From positions 1-48,218 of the forward strand of contig JAQVDU010000003.1 of assembly GCA_028698175.1 (NCBI GenBank): DNA of 48,218 bases, written 5' to 3'. The translations under genes were made by a program, and so were the position numbers. This DNA comes from a bacterium (GTDB taxonomy: Bacteria > Hydrothermota > 32-111). Of this stretch, positions 1,323 to 48,218 are shown piece after piece; position 1 is the first letter of the stretch, and every line of letters begins with the position of its first letter. Below the pieces are notes generated by a model. That model saw only the letters and a program-made list of their open reading frames with translations, searched no databases and was not told the origin of the DNA.

Positions 1323-1350
1323 AATATATGTTAAGGATACTATTTGTCAA
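1323..1350 (-). promoter_or_regulatory. Sigma-70-type promoter of the UPF0104 gene, predicted leaderless
   Basis: On the minus strand: TTGACA (1345-1350), 16-nt spacer, TATATT (1323-1328), then 6 nt (tattca) to the ATG at 1316. Both boxes match the consensus closely, and there is no room for a Shine-Dalgarno after the expected transcription start. Confidence 0.7.
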
Positions 1351-1831: not shown

Positions 1832-1859
1832 TTGACAAGTCCGGCCTGAAAATTATATT
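1832..1859 (+). promoter_or_regulatory. Promoter of hsp20
   Basis: TTGACA (1832-1837), 16-nt spacer, TATATT (1854-1859). The transcript would carry a roughly 20-nt leader with a strong AAGGAGGA 9 nt before the ATG. No CIRCE-like inverted repeat is visible nearby. Confidence 0.7.
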
Positions 1860-1886
1860 TTAGCAAAACAACAAGGAGGACATAAA

Positions 1887-2336: not shown

Positions 2337-2360
2337 GGTCTGATTAAACCAATCAGTTAA

Positions 2361-2389
2361 AAGACGCCCGGAAAGGGCGTCTTTTTTTT
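2361..2389 (+). terminator. Rho-independent terminator after hsp20
   Basis: AAGACGCCC (2361-2369), loop GGAAA, GGGCGTCTT (2375-2383), running into eight T residues. A textbook intrinsic terminator just before the next promoter (2397). Confidence 0.95.
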
Positions 2390-2396
2390 CTCTTTG

Positions 2397-2424
2397 TTGA
2401 CAAATTTCAAATAATCTATATATT
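2397..2424 (+). promoter_or_regulatory. Promoter of the ABC exporter operon, predicted leaderless
   Basis: TTGACA (2397-2402), 16-nt spacer, TATATT (2419-2424), then 8 nt (agatttct) to the ATG at 2433. Transcription should start at or within 1-2 nt of the start codon. No Shine-Dalgarno is present. Confidence 0.7.
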
Positions 2425-2432
2425 AGATTTCT

Positions 2433-4151
2433 ATGTTGGCAAAATTCATTCTATCTTACTATTCAAAAGCTCCCCTGAAGGTTTTCTTTGGTTTCGTGAT
2501 GCTGATACTTGTAGACCTTGCCCAGCTCTTCGTGCCGAGGATGGGCCAAAAGGCGATAGACCTTATTGCTTCGGGCAATCAGGACGTCTCCGGGCTGTTT
2601 TGGCTCTCGCTTATAACAATAGGACTCGCATTGAGCATAGGCATATGCAGGTTCACCTGGAGAATGATAATAATAGGAACATCACATTTTATTGAGAATG
2701 ACTTTAAAAACAAATTATATGACCATCTTTTAAAGCTTGATTCCAATTTCTTCAACAAAACAAAGACAGGCGACATAATGGCTCATATGACAAATGACAT
2801 GCAGGCGATAAGAATGTCAACGGCATTCGGAATGATATCCGGATTTGACGCGATATTCCTCTTCACGGCCGCTTTGATTTTCATGCTGAACCTTGACGTG
2901 AAACTGACTCTTCTGGCTATGGCGCCCCTTCCGATAATCTCTCTGATAACTCTCTTTGCGATGAAGCTGATGTTCAGATACTTCAGGGACGTCCAGGAGT
3001 CCTTTTCCCAGCTCACTGACAAAGTGCAGGAGCTTTTAAGCGGAATAAAAGTAATTCAGGCATTCAGGCAGGAAGACAAGGAGCGTAAAAGGTTCAATGT
3101 GACGAGCAAGGATTATGTCAAAAAGAACATTGACCTTATAATGCTCTGGGGAACGATGTTTCCCCTGATTTTTCTTTTTGCAGATTTGGGGGCGGCGATA
3201 GTGCTATACATGGGAGGCCAGTATGCGATTCTCGGCAGCATAACCCCAGGGGAGTTTGTCGCTTTCTTTGTATATCTCGGCATAATCACTTGGCCTATGA
3301 TGGCTGTGGGCTGGGCATCCAATATTTTTCAGAGGGGAAACGCATCATACAAGAGGGTATATGAATTTTTGAAGGAGGAGGCGAAGATAATCGACAATGA
3401 AGATGCAAGGCATGTATCATTGCGGGGAAATATCGAACTCAAAGACATTACTTTCGGCTATCAGGATAAAGTTGTTCTGAAAGGACTCTCAATGAACATA
3501 AAGCAGGGAGAGTATGTGGGAATAATCGGAAGAATAGGAACGGGAAAATCGACTATAGCAAAGCTCATACTGAGGATTCTTGAGCCGCAGAGAGGAGAGA
3601 TTCTTTTTGACGGGTTGAGTTATAAAAAAATAAAGATAGATTCGGTGAGGGATTCGATAGGGTACGTCCCCCAGGATTCATTTTTGTTTTCAATGTCGAT
3701 AATGGACAATATAAAATTCGGCAGACGGGACGCCACAGACGAAGAGGTGCAGGATGTCGTCAAAGCATCCGCATTCTATAAAGACCTAATTGATTTCAAG
3801 CACGGGCTTGACACTATAGTGGGTGAAAAGGGAGTCACTCTTTCCGGAGGCCAGAAGCAGAGGCTCTGCATCGCCAGAGCGCTGATACGTAAGCCTAAAA
3901 TCCTCATTCTTGACGACGCTTTGAGCGCGGTTGACACTAACACGGAGAAAGAGATACTCGGAAATCTGAGCGAATACTCCAAGGGAATTACTACAATCGT
4001 AATTTCCCACAGGATATCGTCATTTATCAATGCAGACAGCATATATGTGCTTGGAGATGAAAAAGTGGAATCATGCGGCAAGCATTCGGAGCTTATAGTG
4101 AGCTCGCCACTCTACAGGGAATTTTACAGAATTCAAAGGCTGGAAGATTAG
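2433..4151 (+). CDS. ABC exporter subunit with degenerate catalytic site (half-transporter 1)
   Basis: 572 residues with type I exporter architecture: six membrane helices in about residues 1-310, then an ATPase domain. Walker A is GRIGTGKST (366-374) and the signature is canonical LSGGQ (470-474). Walker B ends LILDD, so the catalytic Glu is replaced by Asp (D494-D495); the switch His is H526 (VISHR). This replacement marks the degenerate member of heterodimeric exporters such as TM287/288. The partner follows after 1 nt. The substrate cannot be read from the sequence; drugs, lipids and peptides are all handled by this family. Inner membrane, ATP-driven export. Confidence 0.93.
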   Translation: MLAKFILSYYSKAPLKVFFGFVMLILVDLAQLFVPRMGQKAIDLIASGNQDVSGLFWLSLITIGLALSIGICRFTWRMIIIGTSHFIENDFKNKLYDHLLKLDSNFFNKTKTGDIMAHMTNDMQAIRMSTAFGMISGFDAIFLFTAALIFMLNLDVKLTLLAMAPLPIISLITLFAMKLMFRYFRDVQESFSQLTDKVQELLSGIKVIQAFRQEDKERKRFNVTSKDYVKKNIDLIMLWGTMFPLIFLFADLGAAIVLYMGGQYAILGSITPGEFVAFFVYLGIITWPMMAVGWASNIFQRGNASYKRVYEFLKEEAKIIDNEDARHVSLRGNIELKDITFGYQDKVVLKGLSMNIKQGEYVGIIGRIGTGKSTIAKLILRILEPQRGEILFDGLSYKKIKIDSVRDSIGYVPQDSFLFSMSIMDNIKFGRRDATDEEVQDVVKASAFYKDLIDFKHGLDTIVGEKGVTLSGGQKQRLCIARALIRKPKILILDDALSAVDTNTEKEILGNLSEYSKGITTIVISHRISSFINADSIYVLGDEKVESCGKHSELIVSSPLYREFYRIQRLED

Positions 4152-20136: not shown

Positions 20137-20164
20137 ATATTACTAATAAAAAATCTTTTTTCAA
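20137..20164 (-). promoter_or_regulatory. Promoter of the UPF0104-yfhO unit, predicted leaderless
   Basis: On the minus strand: TTGAAA (20159-20164), 16-nt spacer, TAATAT (20137-20142), then 6 nt to the ATG. The -35 has one mismatch. Confidence 0.55.
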
Positions 20165-21619: not shown

Positions 21620-21647
21620 TTGAATATTTTCTTTTGAATCATATAAT
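21620..21647 (+). promoter_or_regulatory. Promoter of the dpm1-like glycosyltransferase operon, predicted leaderless
   Basis: TTGAAT (21620-21625), 16-nt spacer, perfect TATAAT (21642-21647), then 8 nt (aataatat) to the ATG. No Shine-Dalgarno. Confidence 0.65.
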
Positions 21648-21655
21648 AATAATAT

Positions 21656-22369
21656 ATGAAAACCTTAATTATTATACCCACATACAATGAAATTGATAAT
21701 GCCGAAAAGATTATCAATACAGTCCTATCCCAGGATCCGCGCATAGACATTCTTATAATAGACGACAATTCTCCTGATAAGACAGCCCTTAAAGTCAAGG
21801 AGATGATGGCTTCATGCAATCGCATAAAAATCATAGAGAGGCCGAGCAAGATGGGGCTGGGCACTGCATATGTCACCGGATTCAAATATGCCATAGAGAA
21901 CGAATATGATTTTGTTTTTGAGATGGACGCCGATTTTTCTCATGACCCTGCCGACATTAAAAGATTCCTTAAAGAGATTGAGTCAAATGACCTGGTAATC
22001 GGATCAAGGTACTCAGACGGCGTCAGCGTTGTCAACTGGCCGATGAAGAGACTTCTTCTGTCATACTTTGCCAATATCTATGCCAAGGTGGTGACCGGCG
22101 TTCCCGTAGATGATCTCACCGGAGGATTCAAGTGCTACAGGGTATCATTCCTCAAGAATATTGACCTTAACAGGATAAAGTCGGACGGATACGGATTTCA
22201 GATTGAGATAGACGTTAAAATATACAAAAAAAGGGGAAGGGTGAAGGAGATTCCGATAATATTCCGCGACAGAGTCGACGGATATTCGAAGATGAATAAA
22301 AAAATAATATGGGAAGCCTTTTGGCTTGTGTGGAGATTAAGAGTTCTCTCTGTTTTCAGAAAATTATGA
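21656..22369 (+). CDS. Polyprenol monophosphomannose synthase-like glycosyltransferase (GT2, Dpm1 type)
   Basis: 237 residues. It shows the Dpm1 signatures in order: IIIPTYNEIDNAEKI, ILIIDDNSPDKT, GLGTAYVTGFKYAIE, EMDADFSHDP with the metal-binding Asp residues, LVIGSRYSDG, and DDLTGGFKCYR. These are closest to bacterial polyprenol-phosphate mannose synthases such as Ppm1. The predicted reaction is transfer of mannose (or another hexose) from an NDP donor to a polyprenyl phosphate. It opens an operon of overlapping genes and appears leaderless. Confidence 0.9.
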   Translation: MKTLIIIPTYNEIDNAEKIINTVLSQDPRIDILIIDDNSPDKTALKVKEMMASCNRIKIIERPSKMGLGTAYVTGFKYAIENEYDFVFEMDADFSHDPADIKRFLKEIESNDLVIGSRYSDGVSVVNWPMKRLLLSYFANIYAKVVTGVPVDDLTGGFKCYRVSFLKNIDLNRIKSDGYGFQIEIDVKIYKKRGRVKEIPIIFRDRVDGYSKMNKKIIWEAFWLVWRLRVLSVFRKL

Positions 22370-28341: not shown

Positions 28342-29484
28342 TCAGTCTGAAAGTCTGCTCTGTATATCCAGAATCTCATCGAGGCCTTTAAAAAAGGCCT
28401 CGATTACATTTGAGTCAAACTGTTTGTCTCTCTCAACCTGAATTAAATCGAGTATCTTTTCAAGGGGCCACGGCTCTTTGTAAGGCCTCTTTGTCGCTAA
28501 AGCGTCGAAAACATCGGCAAGGGCTACGATTCTTCCCTCCACGGGAATGTTCTCTCCCTTCAGTCTGTTCGGATATCCGTTTCCGTCATATCTTTCATGA
28601 TGGCTGAGGGCGATTGAAGCGGCAAATTTTATGAGATGTTCGGAGGAGTCCTTCAGAATCTCATACCCCATTGTAGTGTGCTTTTTCATCATGTCCCACT
28701 CGTCAGGGTCAAGCTTTGCCGGCTTTGTCAGAATTGCGTCCGGTATTCCTAATTTGCCGATGTCATGAAGGGGGCTGGCGTAGAGAAGAAGTTCGCAGTA
28801 TTTTGAATCAAACCCCATGTTTCTTGCTATCACCTCTGAATATCTGCTCATTCTCTTGATGTGAGTGCCGGTGTCCGTATCCTTGTATTCAGCAGCCACT
28901 GAGAGCCTGTAAATGGTCTCCAGATGGGCCCTCTTTATGCTGTCTTTCAGCTGGACGTTTTTTATCGCCACTGCGGCTATGGAGGCAAACGACTCTATTA
29001 TTTTTTCAATTTCATTTGAATATGTGACTATCTTCTCTTCAGAATCCTTCGCGTTGATAAGCTGAAGCACTCCTATTACTTCTTTTTCGTTGTCCTTCAT
29101 AGGTATCGTGAGCATTGAAGTCGATTTATAATTGTTGTTCTGGTCGAATTCTATGTTGAATGAAAACGGGTACTCCTTTGGAATGTTGTAAACGTCATCT
29201 ATTCTTATGATGTCACCGGTGAATGCCGCATAGCCCGCTATCGAATGTTTGTCAATGTAAATCGGAAAGGATTTGAAATTCTTGTTGATGTCTTTCAAAG
29301 TGTCGTTCTGAGTGATAAGAAAAATTAGCCGGTTGCCCTCTTTCAGATAAAGCGAACCTGCATCCGAATTGGTTATGTCGCGCGCCTTTTTAAGCACAGT
29401 GTCAAGAAGGTCGTTAAGCGTTGACTTTGAACTTATAAGTATTGATATATTTATAAGTTCGTTGAGAATGATTTCTTTGTTCAT
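28342..29484 (-). CDS. GAF-HD-GYP protein, putative cyclic-di-GMP phosphodiesterase
   Basis: About 380 residues from ATG 29484. A GAF sensory domain covers about residues 15-170. The HD-GYP domain follows, with LHDIGKLGIPD (HD near 239) and HHERYDGNGYPNRLKGENIP (GYP near 301), plus the ALADVFDALATKRPYK strand. HD-GYP enzymes hydrolyse cyclic-di-GMP; all motif residues I can recognise are present. No membrane segment, so it is cytoplasmic. The track's start at 29493 falls inside the predicted -10 box, so the second Met is preferred; it lies 7 nt after TATTAT, implying a leaderless mRNA. It sits back to back with the polysaccharide export operon. Confidence 0.92.
   Translation of the reverse strand: MNKEIILNELINISILISSKSTLNDLLDTVLKKARDITNSDAGSLYLKEGNRLIFLITQNDTLKDINKNFKSFPIYIDKHSIAGYAAFTGDIIRIDDVYNIPKEYPFSFNIEFDQNNNYKSTSMLTIPMKDNEKEVIGVLQLINAKDSEEKIVTYSNEIEKIIESFASIAAVAIKNVQLKDSIKRAHLETIYRLSVAAEYKDTDTGTHIKRMSRYSEVIARNMGFDSKYCELLLYASPLHDIGKLGIPDAILTKPAKLDPDEWDMMKKHTTMGYEILKDSSEHLIKFAASIALSHHERYDGNGYPNRLKGENIPVEGRIVALADVFDALATKRPYKEPWPLEKILDLIQVERDKQFDSNVIEAFFKGLDEILDIQSRLSD
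28381..28401. repeat. Perfect hairpin inside the end of the HD-GYP gene
   Basis: GAGGCCTTT (28381-28389), 3-nt loop, AAAGGCCTC (28393-28401). It lies within codons for the C-terminal AFFKGLDE and 40 nt beyond the stop of the convergent TM1266-like gene. It could act as a weak transcription stop for that operon, although no T-tract follows. Confidence 0.5.
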
Positions 29485-29491
29485 AGATATC

Positions 29492-29519
29492 ATAATAATA
29501 CATAAAATAATTTAGTCAA
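29492..29519 (-). promoter_or_regulatory. Promoter of the GAF-HD-GYP gene, predicted leaderless
   Basis: On the minus strand: TTGACT (29514-29519), 16-nt spacer, TATTAT (29492-29497), then 7 nt (gatatct) to the ATG at 29484. Confidence 0.7.
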
Positions 29520-40711: not shown

Positions 40712-40740
40712 ATTATATACAAAATATGATTATAAGGCAA
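40712..40740 (-). promoter_or_regulatory. Promoter of the glycosidase-like gene, predicted leaderless
   Basis: On the minus strand: TTGCCT (40735-40740), 17-nt spacer, perfect TATAAT (40712-40717), then 7 nt (caaatga) to the ATG at 40704. The upstream ATG inside those 7 nt opens only a three-codon frame. Confidence 0.6.
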
Positions 40741-47340: not shown

Positions 47341-47368
47341 TTGACTTTGTTTTGTTTTCATGCACACT
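47341..47368 (+). promoter_or_regulatory. Possible promoter of the HemN-like gene (weak -10)
   Basis: TTGACT (47341-47346), 16-nt spacer, CACACT (47363-47368), then 6 nt (aatcag) to the ATG. The spacing matches the other predicted leaderless promoters, but the -10 is poor. Confidence 0.35.
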
Positions 47369-47374
47369 AATCAG

Positions 47375-48218
47375 ATGGACTTTTTTTATACAAAAACAGC
47401 TGACGCACTTCTGAAGAGCGCCAGAAAATTCATAAGCGGAAGAGATTCCAATTATGTTTTCTTTAAGGCGGAAAATCCATTGAAACAACAAAGGGCATGC
47501 ACAAGCATTTACGTTCACATTCCTTTCTGCAATTCGCTATGCCCCTACTGTCCTTACAATCGCATTCCGGAGGACAAAGCCCGGCTTGCATTATACATTG
47601 AGGCGCTTAAAAAGGAGATAACAGGCATTTCCGGTTTGTGCGGAAGAAGAGACGTATCATCGGTTTATTTCGGAGGAGGTACGCCGCTGCTTACCGGGGA
47701 AAAAATCAAAGAAATAACACGTACGATAAGGGATAATTACAATGTTTCAGGAGATTTCTGCATTGAAGCAAATCCTAATGATATAAATGAAGATTCGGTG
47801 GAATTGCTTAAACAGGCGGGGTTCGCGTCAATAAGCCTCGGTGTTCAGAGTTTTAACGATGACCTTTTGAAGAGTATTGGAAGAAAATATGCGTCATCTG
47901 CCGCAGTAAGCTCAGCAATAAAGCTTTTGACGTCTGGATTCGATTCTGTCAACATTGACTTGCTTTTCGCGCTGCCGGGTCAGAATATGGATTGTCTTAT
48001 GAATGACCTTGAAAAGGCGGTTTCGCTCAAACCAGACCAGATAACAACTTATCCTCTTTTTACATTTCCCTACTCTGAGATCTCACAATTCAAGAAAATC
48101 AAGCACGTCGAATCGCCTTCTCTCATAAAAAGAAGAAGAATGTACTATTCAATCTACGAATACCTTGAAAAGTCCGGATATAAAAGGTGCTCGGTATGGT
48201 CATTTAAAAGAGAAAAAA
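47375..48218 (+). CDS. HemN-like radical SAM protein, N-terminal part (cut by window edge)
   Basis: Not in the ORF track because the right edge cuts it; translated by hand, with 281 codons open. The radical SAM cluster motif is IPFCNSLCPYCPY (Cys 52, 56 and 59). The family pattern follows: VYFGGGTPLL, EANPNDINEDSVELLKQAGF, ISLGVQSFNDDLLKSIGR, and IDLLFALPGQ. This is the HemN/HemW (coproporphyrinogen dehydrogenase-like) family. It has about 45 residues before the cluster strand, and CPYN in place of the CDF of HemW, so a specific role in haem synthesis is unproven. No Shine-Dalgarno precedes the ATG. The C-terminus lies outside the window. Confidence 0.88.
   Translation, partial: MDFFYTKTADALLKSARKFISGRDSNYVFFKAENPLKQQRACTSIYVHIPFCNSLCPYCPYNRIPEDKARLALYIEALKKEITGISGLCGRRDVSSVYFGGGTPLLTGEKIKEITRTIRDNYNVSGDFCIEANPNDINEDSVELLKQAGFASISLGVQSFNDDLLKSIGRKYASSAAVSSAIKLLTSGFDSVNIDLLFALPGQNMDCLMNDLEKAVSLKPDQITTYPLFTFPYSEISQFKKIKHVESPSLIKRRRMYYSIYEYLEKSGYKRCSVWSFKREK

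Follow-up and report, generated by a model that had tools for sequence, protein, structure and literature searches.

Housekeeping σ70-type promoters of this genome very probably produce leaderless mRNAs that have no Shine-Dalgarno (SD) sequence, alongside SD-led genes with short leaders. We studied them in the window, a stretch of 48,218 nt (contig JAQVDU010000003.1), in the genome to which it belongs (1.96 Mb in 150 contigs) and in related genomes. The promoter position, the absence of an SD, the restriction to first genes, the ATG-only starts and the conservation of the layout are all read from the DNA itself. We infer where exactly transcription begins and how the ribosome loads. The position of the promoter would make RNA polymerase begin on the A of the ATG or at most 1-2 nt away from it. 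The resulting mRNA would have neither a 5' leader nor an SD. By analogy with the 70S initiation on leaderless mRNAs that has been reviewed (PMC9031893), 70S ribosomes would bind its 5'-terminal AUG. In parallel, the -10 box of SD-led genes, mostly 15-29 nt upstream, would give short leaders.

Promoter layout in the window

The first-pass annotation had described seven promoters with the -10 box 6-8 nt before an ATG. Their hexamers, spacers and distances were all reproduced (Table 1), and none of the seven ATGs (1316, 2433, 20130, 21656, 29484, 40704 and 47375) has an SD, as it had also claimed. Six of these promoters match the consensus at 9-11 of 12 positions, and the one at 47375 at 8/12. 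The units 1887, 6310, 20251, 29585, 38335, 40830 and 47269 had been listed as leadered. They indeed carry AGGAGG, GGAG or GGGGG, with the -10 box 20-40 nt upstream.

The ABC exporter gene begins its own unit, because the terminator of the Hsp20 gene ends just before the -35 box (2397). A leader or read-through would have little space there. At 29484, the ATG of the longest open reading frame (29493) overlaps the -10 box. It is therefore unlikely to be the true start, and a default annotation would probably begin three codons too early.

Table 1. Coordinates of promoters and associated features in the window.
Feature	Position	Strand	Remarks
Predicted leaderless ABC exporter gene, 572 aa	2433..4151	+	Putative transcription start at 2431-2433
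-35 box TTGACA	2397..2402	+	ABC exporter gene 2433-4151
-10 box TATATT	2419..2424	+	16-bp spacer; ATG 2433 8 nt downstream
Intrinsic terminator of the upstream Hsp20 gene	2359..2392	+	11-bp stem, T-run
Promoter TTGACA-16-TATATT-6-ATG 1316	1323..1350	-	LPG synthase TM-family gene 369-1316
Promoter TTGAAA-16-TAATAT-6-ATG 20130	20137..20164	-	
Promoter TTGAAT-16-TATAAT-8-ATG 21656	21620..21647	+	Family 2 glycosyltransferase
Promoter TTGACT-16-TATTAT-7-ATG 29484	29492..29519	-	GAF/HD-GYP gene
Promoter TTGCCT-17-TATAAT-7-ATG 40704	40712..40740	-	774 aa, hydrophobic signal-like N terminus
Weak promoter TTGACT-16-CACACT-6-ATG 47375	47341..47368	+	Cysteine-motif protein, radical-SAM-like by eye
Contrasting SD-led unit, Hsp20 ATG 1887	1832..1886	+	TTGACA-16-TATATT, then 27 nt including AAGGAGG

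Frequency of the layout in the genome

We sampled 722 kb of the 1.96-Mb genome, with 186 first genes that have at least 110 nt upstream. A codon-pair model called the genes, and the coding score and the start-codon type alone decided the starts. Since start calling ignored upstream signals, none of them could bias the chosen starts. A promoter match needed at least 9 of the 12 consensus positions in its -35 and -10 boxes, and its end had to lie 5-9 nt upstream of the start.

Such a promoter precedes 37 of the 102 SD-less first genes in the 722-kb sample, versus a mean of 2.3 and a maximum of 7 in dinucleotide-shuffled DNA. Chance is thus excluded genome-wide. The distance profile is sharp, with 41 matches at 5-9 nt and one at 10-14 nt. 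Among SD-led first genes, only 3/84 have a promoter at 5-9 nt, and 45 matches lie at 15-29 nt. The units thus form two classes, leaderless and SD-led with a short leader. Operon-internal genes have one in 3/316 cases. The test set for the proposal was whether -10 boxes are enriched this close to the start; the enrichment is present, sharp and confined to SD-less first genes. The remaining 65 SD-less first genes lack such a promoter; some of them may have miscalled starts or use promoters of another type.

The first-pass annotation had also estimated that about half of the readable units are leaderless. This is true of the window (7 of the 14 units listed), but genome-wide the proportion is about 20% of first genes (37/186). 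Leaderless mRNAs appear to make up about a fifth of the sampled transcription units in this genome.

The -10 boxes are accompanied by full TTGACA-like boxes at a spacing of 15-18 nt, mostly 16. Spacers of 16 bp are preferred in the family, in both the leaderless and the SD-led classes. Strong SD peaks are present in first and internal genes of the genome, and the 3' end of its 16S rRNA (GGATCACCTCCTTT) has an intact anti-SD. SD initiation is therefore intact, and SD-led genes coexist with leaderless ones in this genome.

We applied the same search to other DNA. In E. coli K-12 (150 kb), the count of promoters at 5-9 nt was 0/37. A Deinococcus deserti plasmid (200 kb) gave no matches when a -35 box was demanded. 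This null result was due to the -35 requirement, because a -10-only test (TANNNT), added afterwards, recovers the peak: 13 matches at 5-8 nt in 60 SD-less first genes of the plasmid, and almost none further away. Finally, the sample of the relative G003 had 0/16 SD-less genes with such a promoter; its whole-genome pattern count was 31 versus 2 for the control.

The leaders of the SD-led units are themselves short. With the -10 box mostly 15-29 nt before the start, they would be only about 8-22 nt long, barely above what an SD needs. Also, every divergent gene pair of the window (5/5) joins one leaderless and one SD-led gene. We rejected this as a rule, as the sample contains 14 mixed pairs, 10 SD/SD and 4 leaderless/leaderless.

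Features of the start codon

Two signatures were computed on the sample that had itself revealed the class, with 56 leaderless calls in five genomes of the family. The start codon is ATG in 56/56 leaderless calls, versus 141/156 SD-led ones (p=0.013). Position -1 is a pyrimidine in 43/56 versus 80/156 (p=0.0009), and it is never G in the 56 leaderless calls. The pyrimidine preference is strongest when the -10 box lies at 7-8 nt (13/15 and 12/13, respectively). It fits a pyrimidine/A start and is indirect evidence for transcription from the A of the ATG. Together with the enrichment and the conservation of the layout, the ATG-only starts and the pyrimidine at -1 support the earlier proposal of leaderless genes in a mixed genome.

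Orthologous promoters in relatives

Orthologous promoters keep the layout while their spacers diverge. At 1316, TTGACA-16-TATATT or TAATAT lies 6-8 nt before the ATG in all four family members G001-G004. At 29484, the layout is present in G001, G003 and G004, and an SD takes its place in G002. The weak site at 47375 is supported by its orthologue in G001, which reads TTGACT-16-TAAACT-7-ATG. The exporter at 2433 keeps the layout less exactly than these three genes. More precisely, the start in G002-G004 is SD-less and preceded by a -10-like box at about 6-7 nt. For 40704, no orthologue was found among the genomes searched.

The glycosyltransferase at 21656 has the leaderless layout in this genome and in G001, with TATAAT in the same place, and is SD-led in G002-G006. 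This is a predicted switch of initiation mode, leaderless in one genus and SD-led in other genera.

In G004 (L164:18543-18566), two divergent ATGs are 22 bp apart and their leaderless -10 boxes overlap. At this distance, the -35 box of each promoter lies inside the other gene or at its edge.

The exporter at 2433 is 68-69% identical to proteins of its closest named relatives, MAGs labelled candidate division WOR-3 UBA6260 and 'Acetofilamentum' SulCav. Its identity to Atribacterota proteins is about 61%, versus about 43% to those of other families of its own phylum. The Atribacterota homologues mostly have TTGACA-16-TATATT 8-11 nt before the ATG, without an SD. These identities suggest a transfer between phyla, along with a leaderless-like promoter. 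In two of those Atribacterota genomes, whole-genome counts of the exact pattern showed no leaderless excess.

Distribution in the phylum

The labels of the exporter's closest named MAGs place the phylum as WOR-3, which NCBI now calls Caldifarciminota. We surveyed 147 of its genomes with the exact pattern TTGACN(16-18)TATANTN(5-9)ATG on both strands, using the reversed pattern as the control. This genome has 41 matches versus 2 in the control. Two f4 genomes have 79-80 matches, f18 has 98, one f28 genome has 109 and two f10 genomes reach 173-182, while the controls stay at 0-3. Matches were far fewer when the ATG was displaced to 11-15 nt (11 versus 2 in the control for this genome).

We also estimated the leaderless share of TTGAC-TATANT promoters. 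It is 0.29 in this genome (41 minus 2, of 154 minus 21 in the control). In a hand-picked set, most genomes worked out have a share of 0.20-0.52, versus 0.02-0.16 for the displaced layout.

The leaderless excess is seen in most families of the phylum, not in all. By the exact pattern, the excess is slight or absent in f6 and f12. TTGAC-TATANT promoters are scarce or missing in families f17, f19, f23 and f24; for this reason, we rejected the reading of their low counts as a loss of leaderless genes. In f17, f23 and f24 almost no such promoters rise above the control, and another promoter consensus may be used there. Among the outgroups, the excess is absent from the Clostridia L022 and L025 and modest in one Spirochaete and one Fibrobacteres MAG. 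These counts suggest that leaderless genes are common across most families of the phylum.

A wider reading is possible, and we offer it tentatively, at somewhat less than even confidence. WOR-3/Caldifarciminota may be among the most leaderless-rich bacterial phyla. In f4, f10 and f18, about half of the near-consensus σ70 promoters would run directly into an ATG, and orthologues would switch their initiation mode. At least one leaderless promoter, that of the exporter at 2433, would be common to Atribacterota, as if carried with the gene.

Alternative explanations

The distances of 6 to 9 nt between the -10 box and the ATG mean that some transcripts could start 1-3 nt upstream. The mRNAs might then be SD-less with a short leader of 3-10 nt, and not strictly leaderless. 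We consider this very unlikely as the general case. The matches cut off sharply after 9 nt, and the pyrimidine preference at -1 peaks where the -10 box is at 7-8 nt, as it would for a start on the A of the ATG. A shade less probable still is an SD-less initiation of the Bacteroidetes type, with the TATATT-like letters as an unstructured landing site for ribosomes within a real leader and the promoter elsewhere. The DNA upstream of the starts is AT-rich, and Bacteroidetes are reported to lack SDs yet keep the anti-SD (PMC6847099). However, the same DNA when dinucleotide-shuffled gives 2.3 matches and not 37. The letters also come with TTGACA-like boxes, mostly 16 nt away, and the pattern is missing from operon-internal genes. 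Moreover, initiation of the Bacteroidetes type needs a genome-wide absence of SDs, whereas the rest of this genome is SD-led and its anti-SD is intact.

The starts are predicted, and wrong start codons would turn these genes into ordinary leadered ones, with true starts downstream, each with its own SD. In fact, the coding-score start caller picked downstream codons for 20130 and 40704. Nevertheless, the hydrophobic N-terminal segments of both proteins fit the upstream starts. Orthologues align from residue 1 at 2433, 1316 and 21656, and the enrichment across the genome goes with the called ATG. We therefore regard this explanation as hardly credible. Leaderless transcription from σ70-type promoters is the reading that best explains the data.

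Comparison with known leaderless systems

Gene finders that give weight to the SD may misplace leaderless starts, so the annotations of many first genes in the phylum may be wrong. The gene at 29484 is an example of a possible misannotation in the window. Since the phylum holds close relatives that would initiate one gene in different ways, it allows tests of how leaderless initiation evolved.

Genes of this kind are already known. The genes described here show the features of the bacterial leaderless class: a fixed short distance to the -10 box, the absence of an SD, occurrence in first genes only and a preference for AUG. What is new is the extent in the phylum and the high, lineage-dependent rate. 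Our literature search found no earlier report of leaderless genes in WOR-3/Caldifarciminota. In the accessible text of the survey by Zheng et al. (2011), which covered the 953 bacterial genomes available in 2011, we found no mention of a WOR-3 genome (PMC3160421).

That survey describes TA-led genes, whose signal lies about 12 bp upstream of the start, and calls them widespread among bacteria but not dominant (PMC3160421). The genes of this genome resemble them in the TANNNT/TATAAT -10-like signal, the absence of an SD and the mixture with SD-led genes. They differ in that the -35 box is usually strong too. The mixed genome also recalls the bacterial leaderless class of GeneMarkS-2, as outlined in a later source (Lomsadze 2018, via PMC9581028). 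In Deinococcus, leaderless ORFs adjacent to a -10 box have been demonstrated experimentally (PMC12340547). As in Deinococcus-Thermus, the -10 box lies here at the same distance from the start (5-8 nt in the D. deserti plasmid), within a mixed population that includes SD-led genes. Unlike in Deinococcus, where the -10 motif alone can be the promoter, promoters here as a rule have a near-consensus TTGACA separated by 16 bp from the -10 box. This lineage is added to the bacteria in which leaderless translation looks routine and not exceptional.
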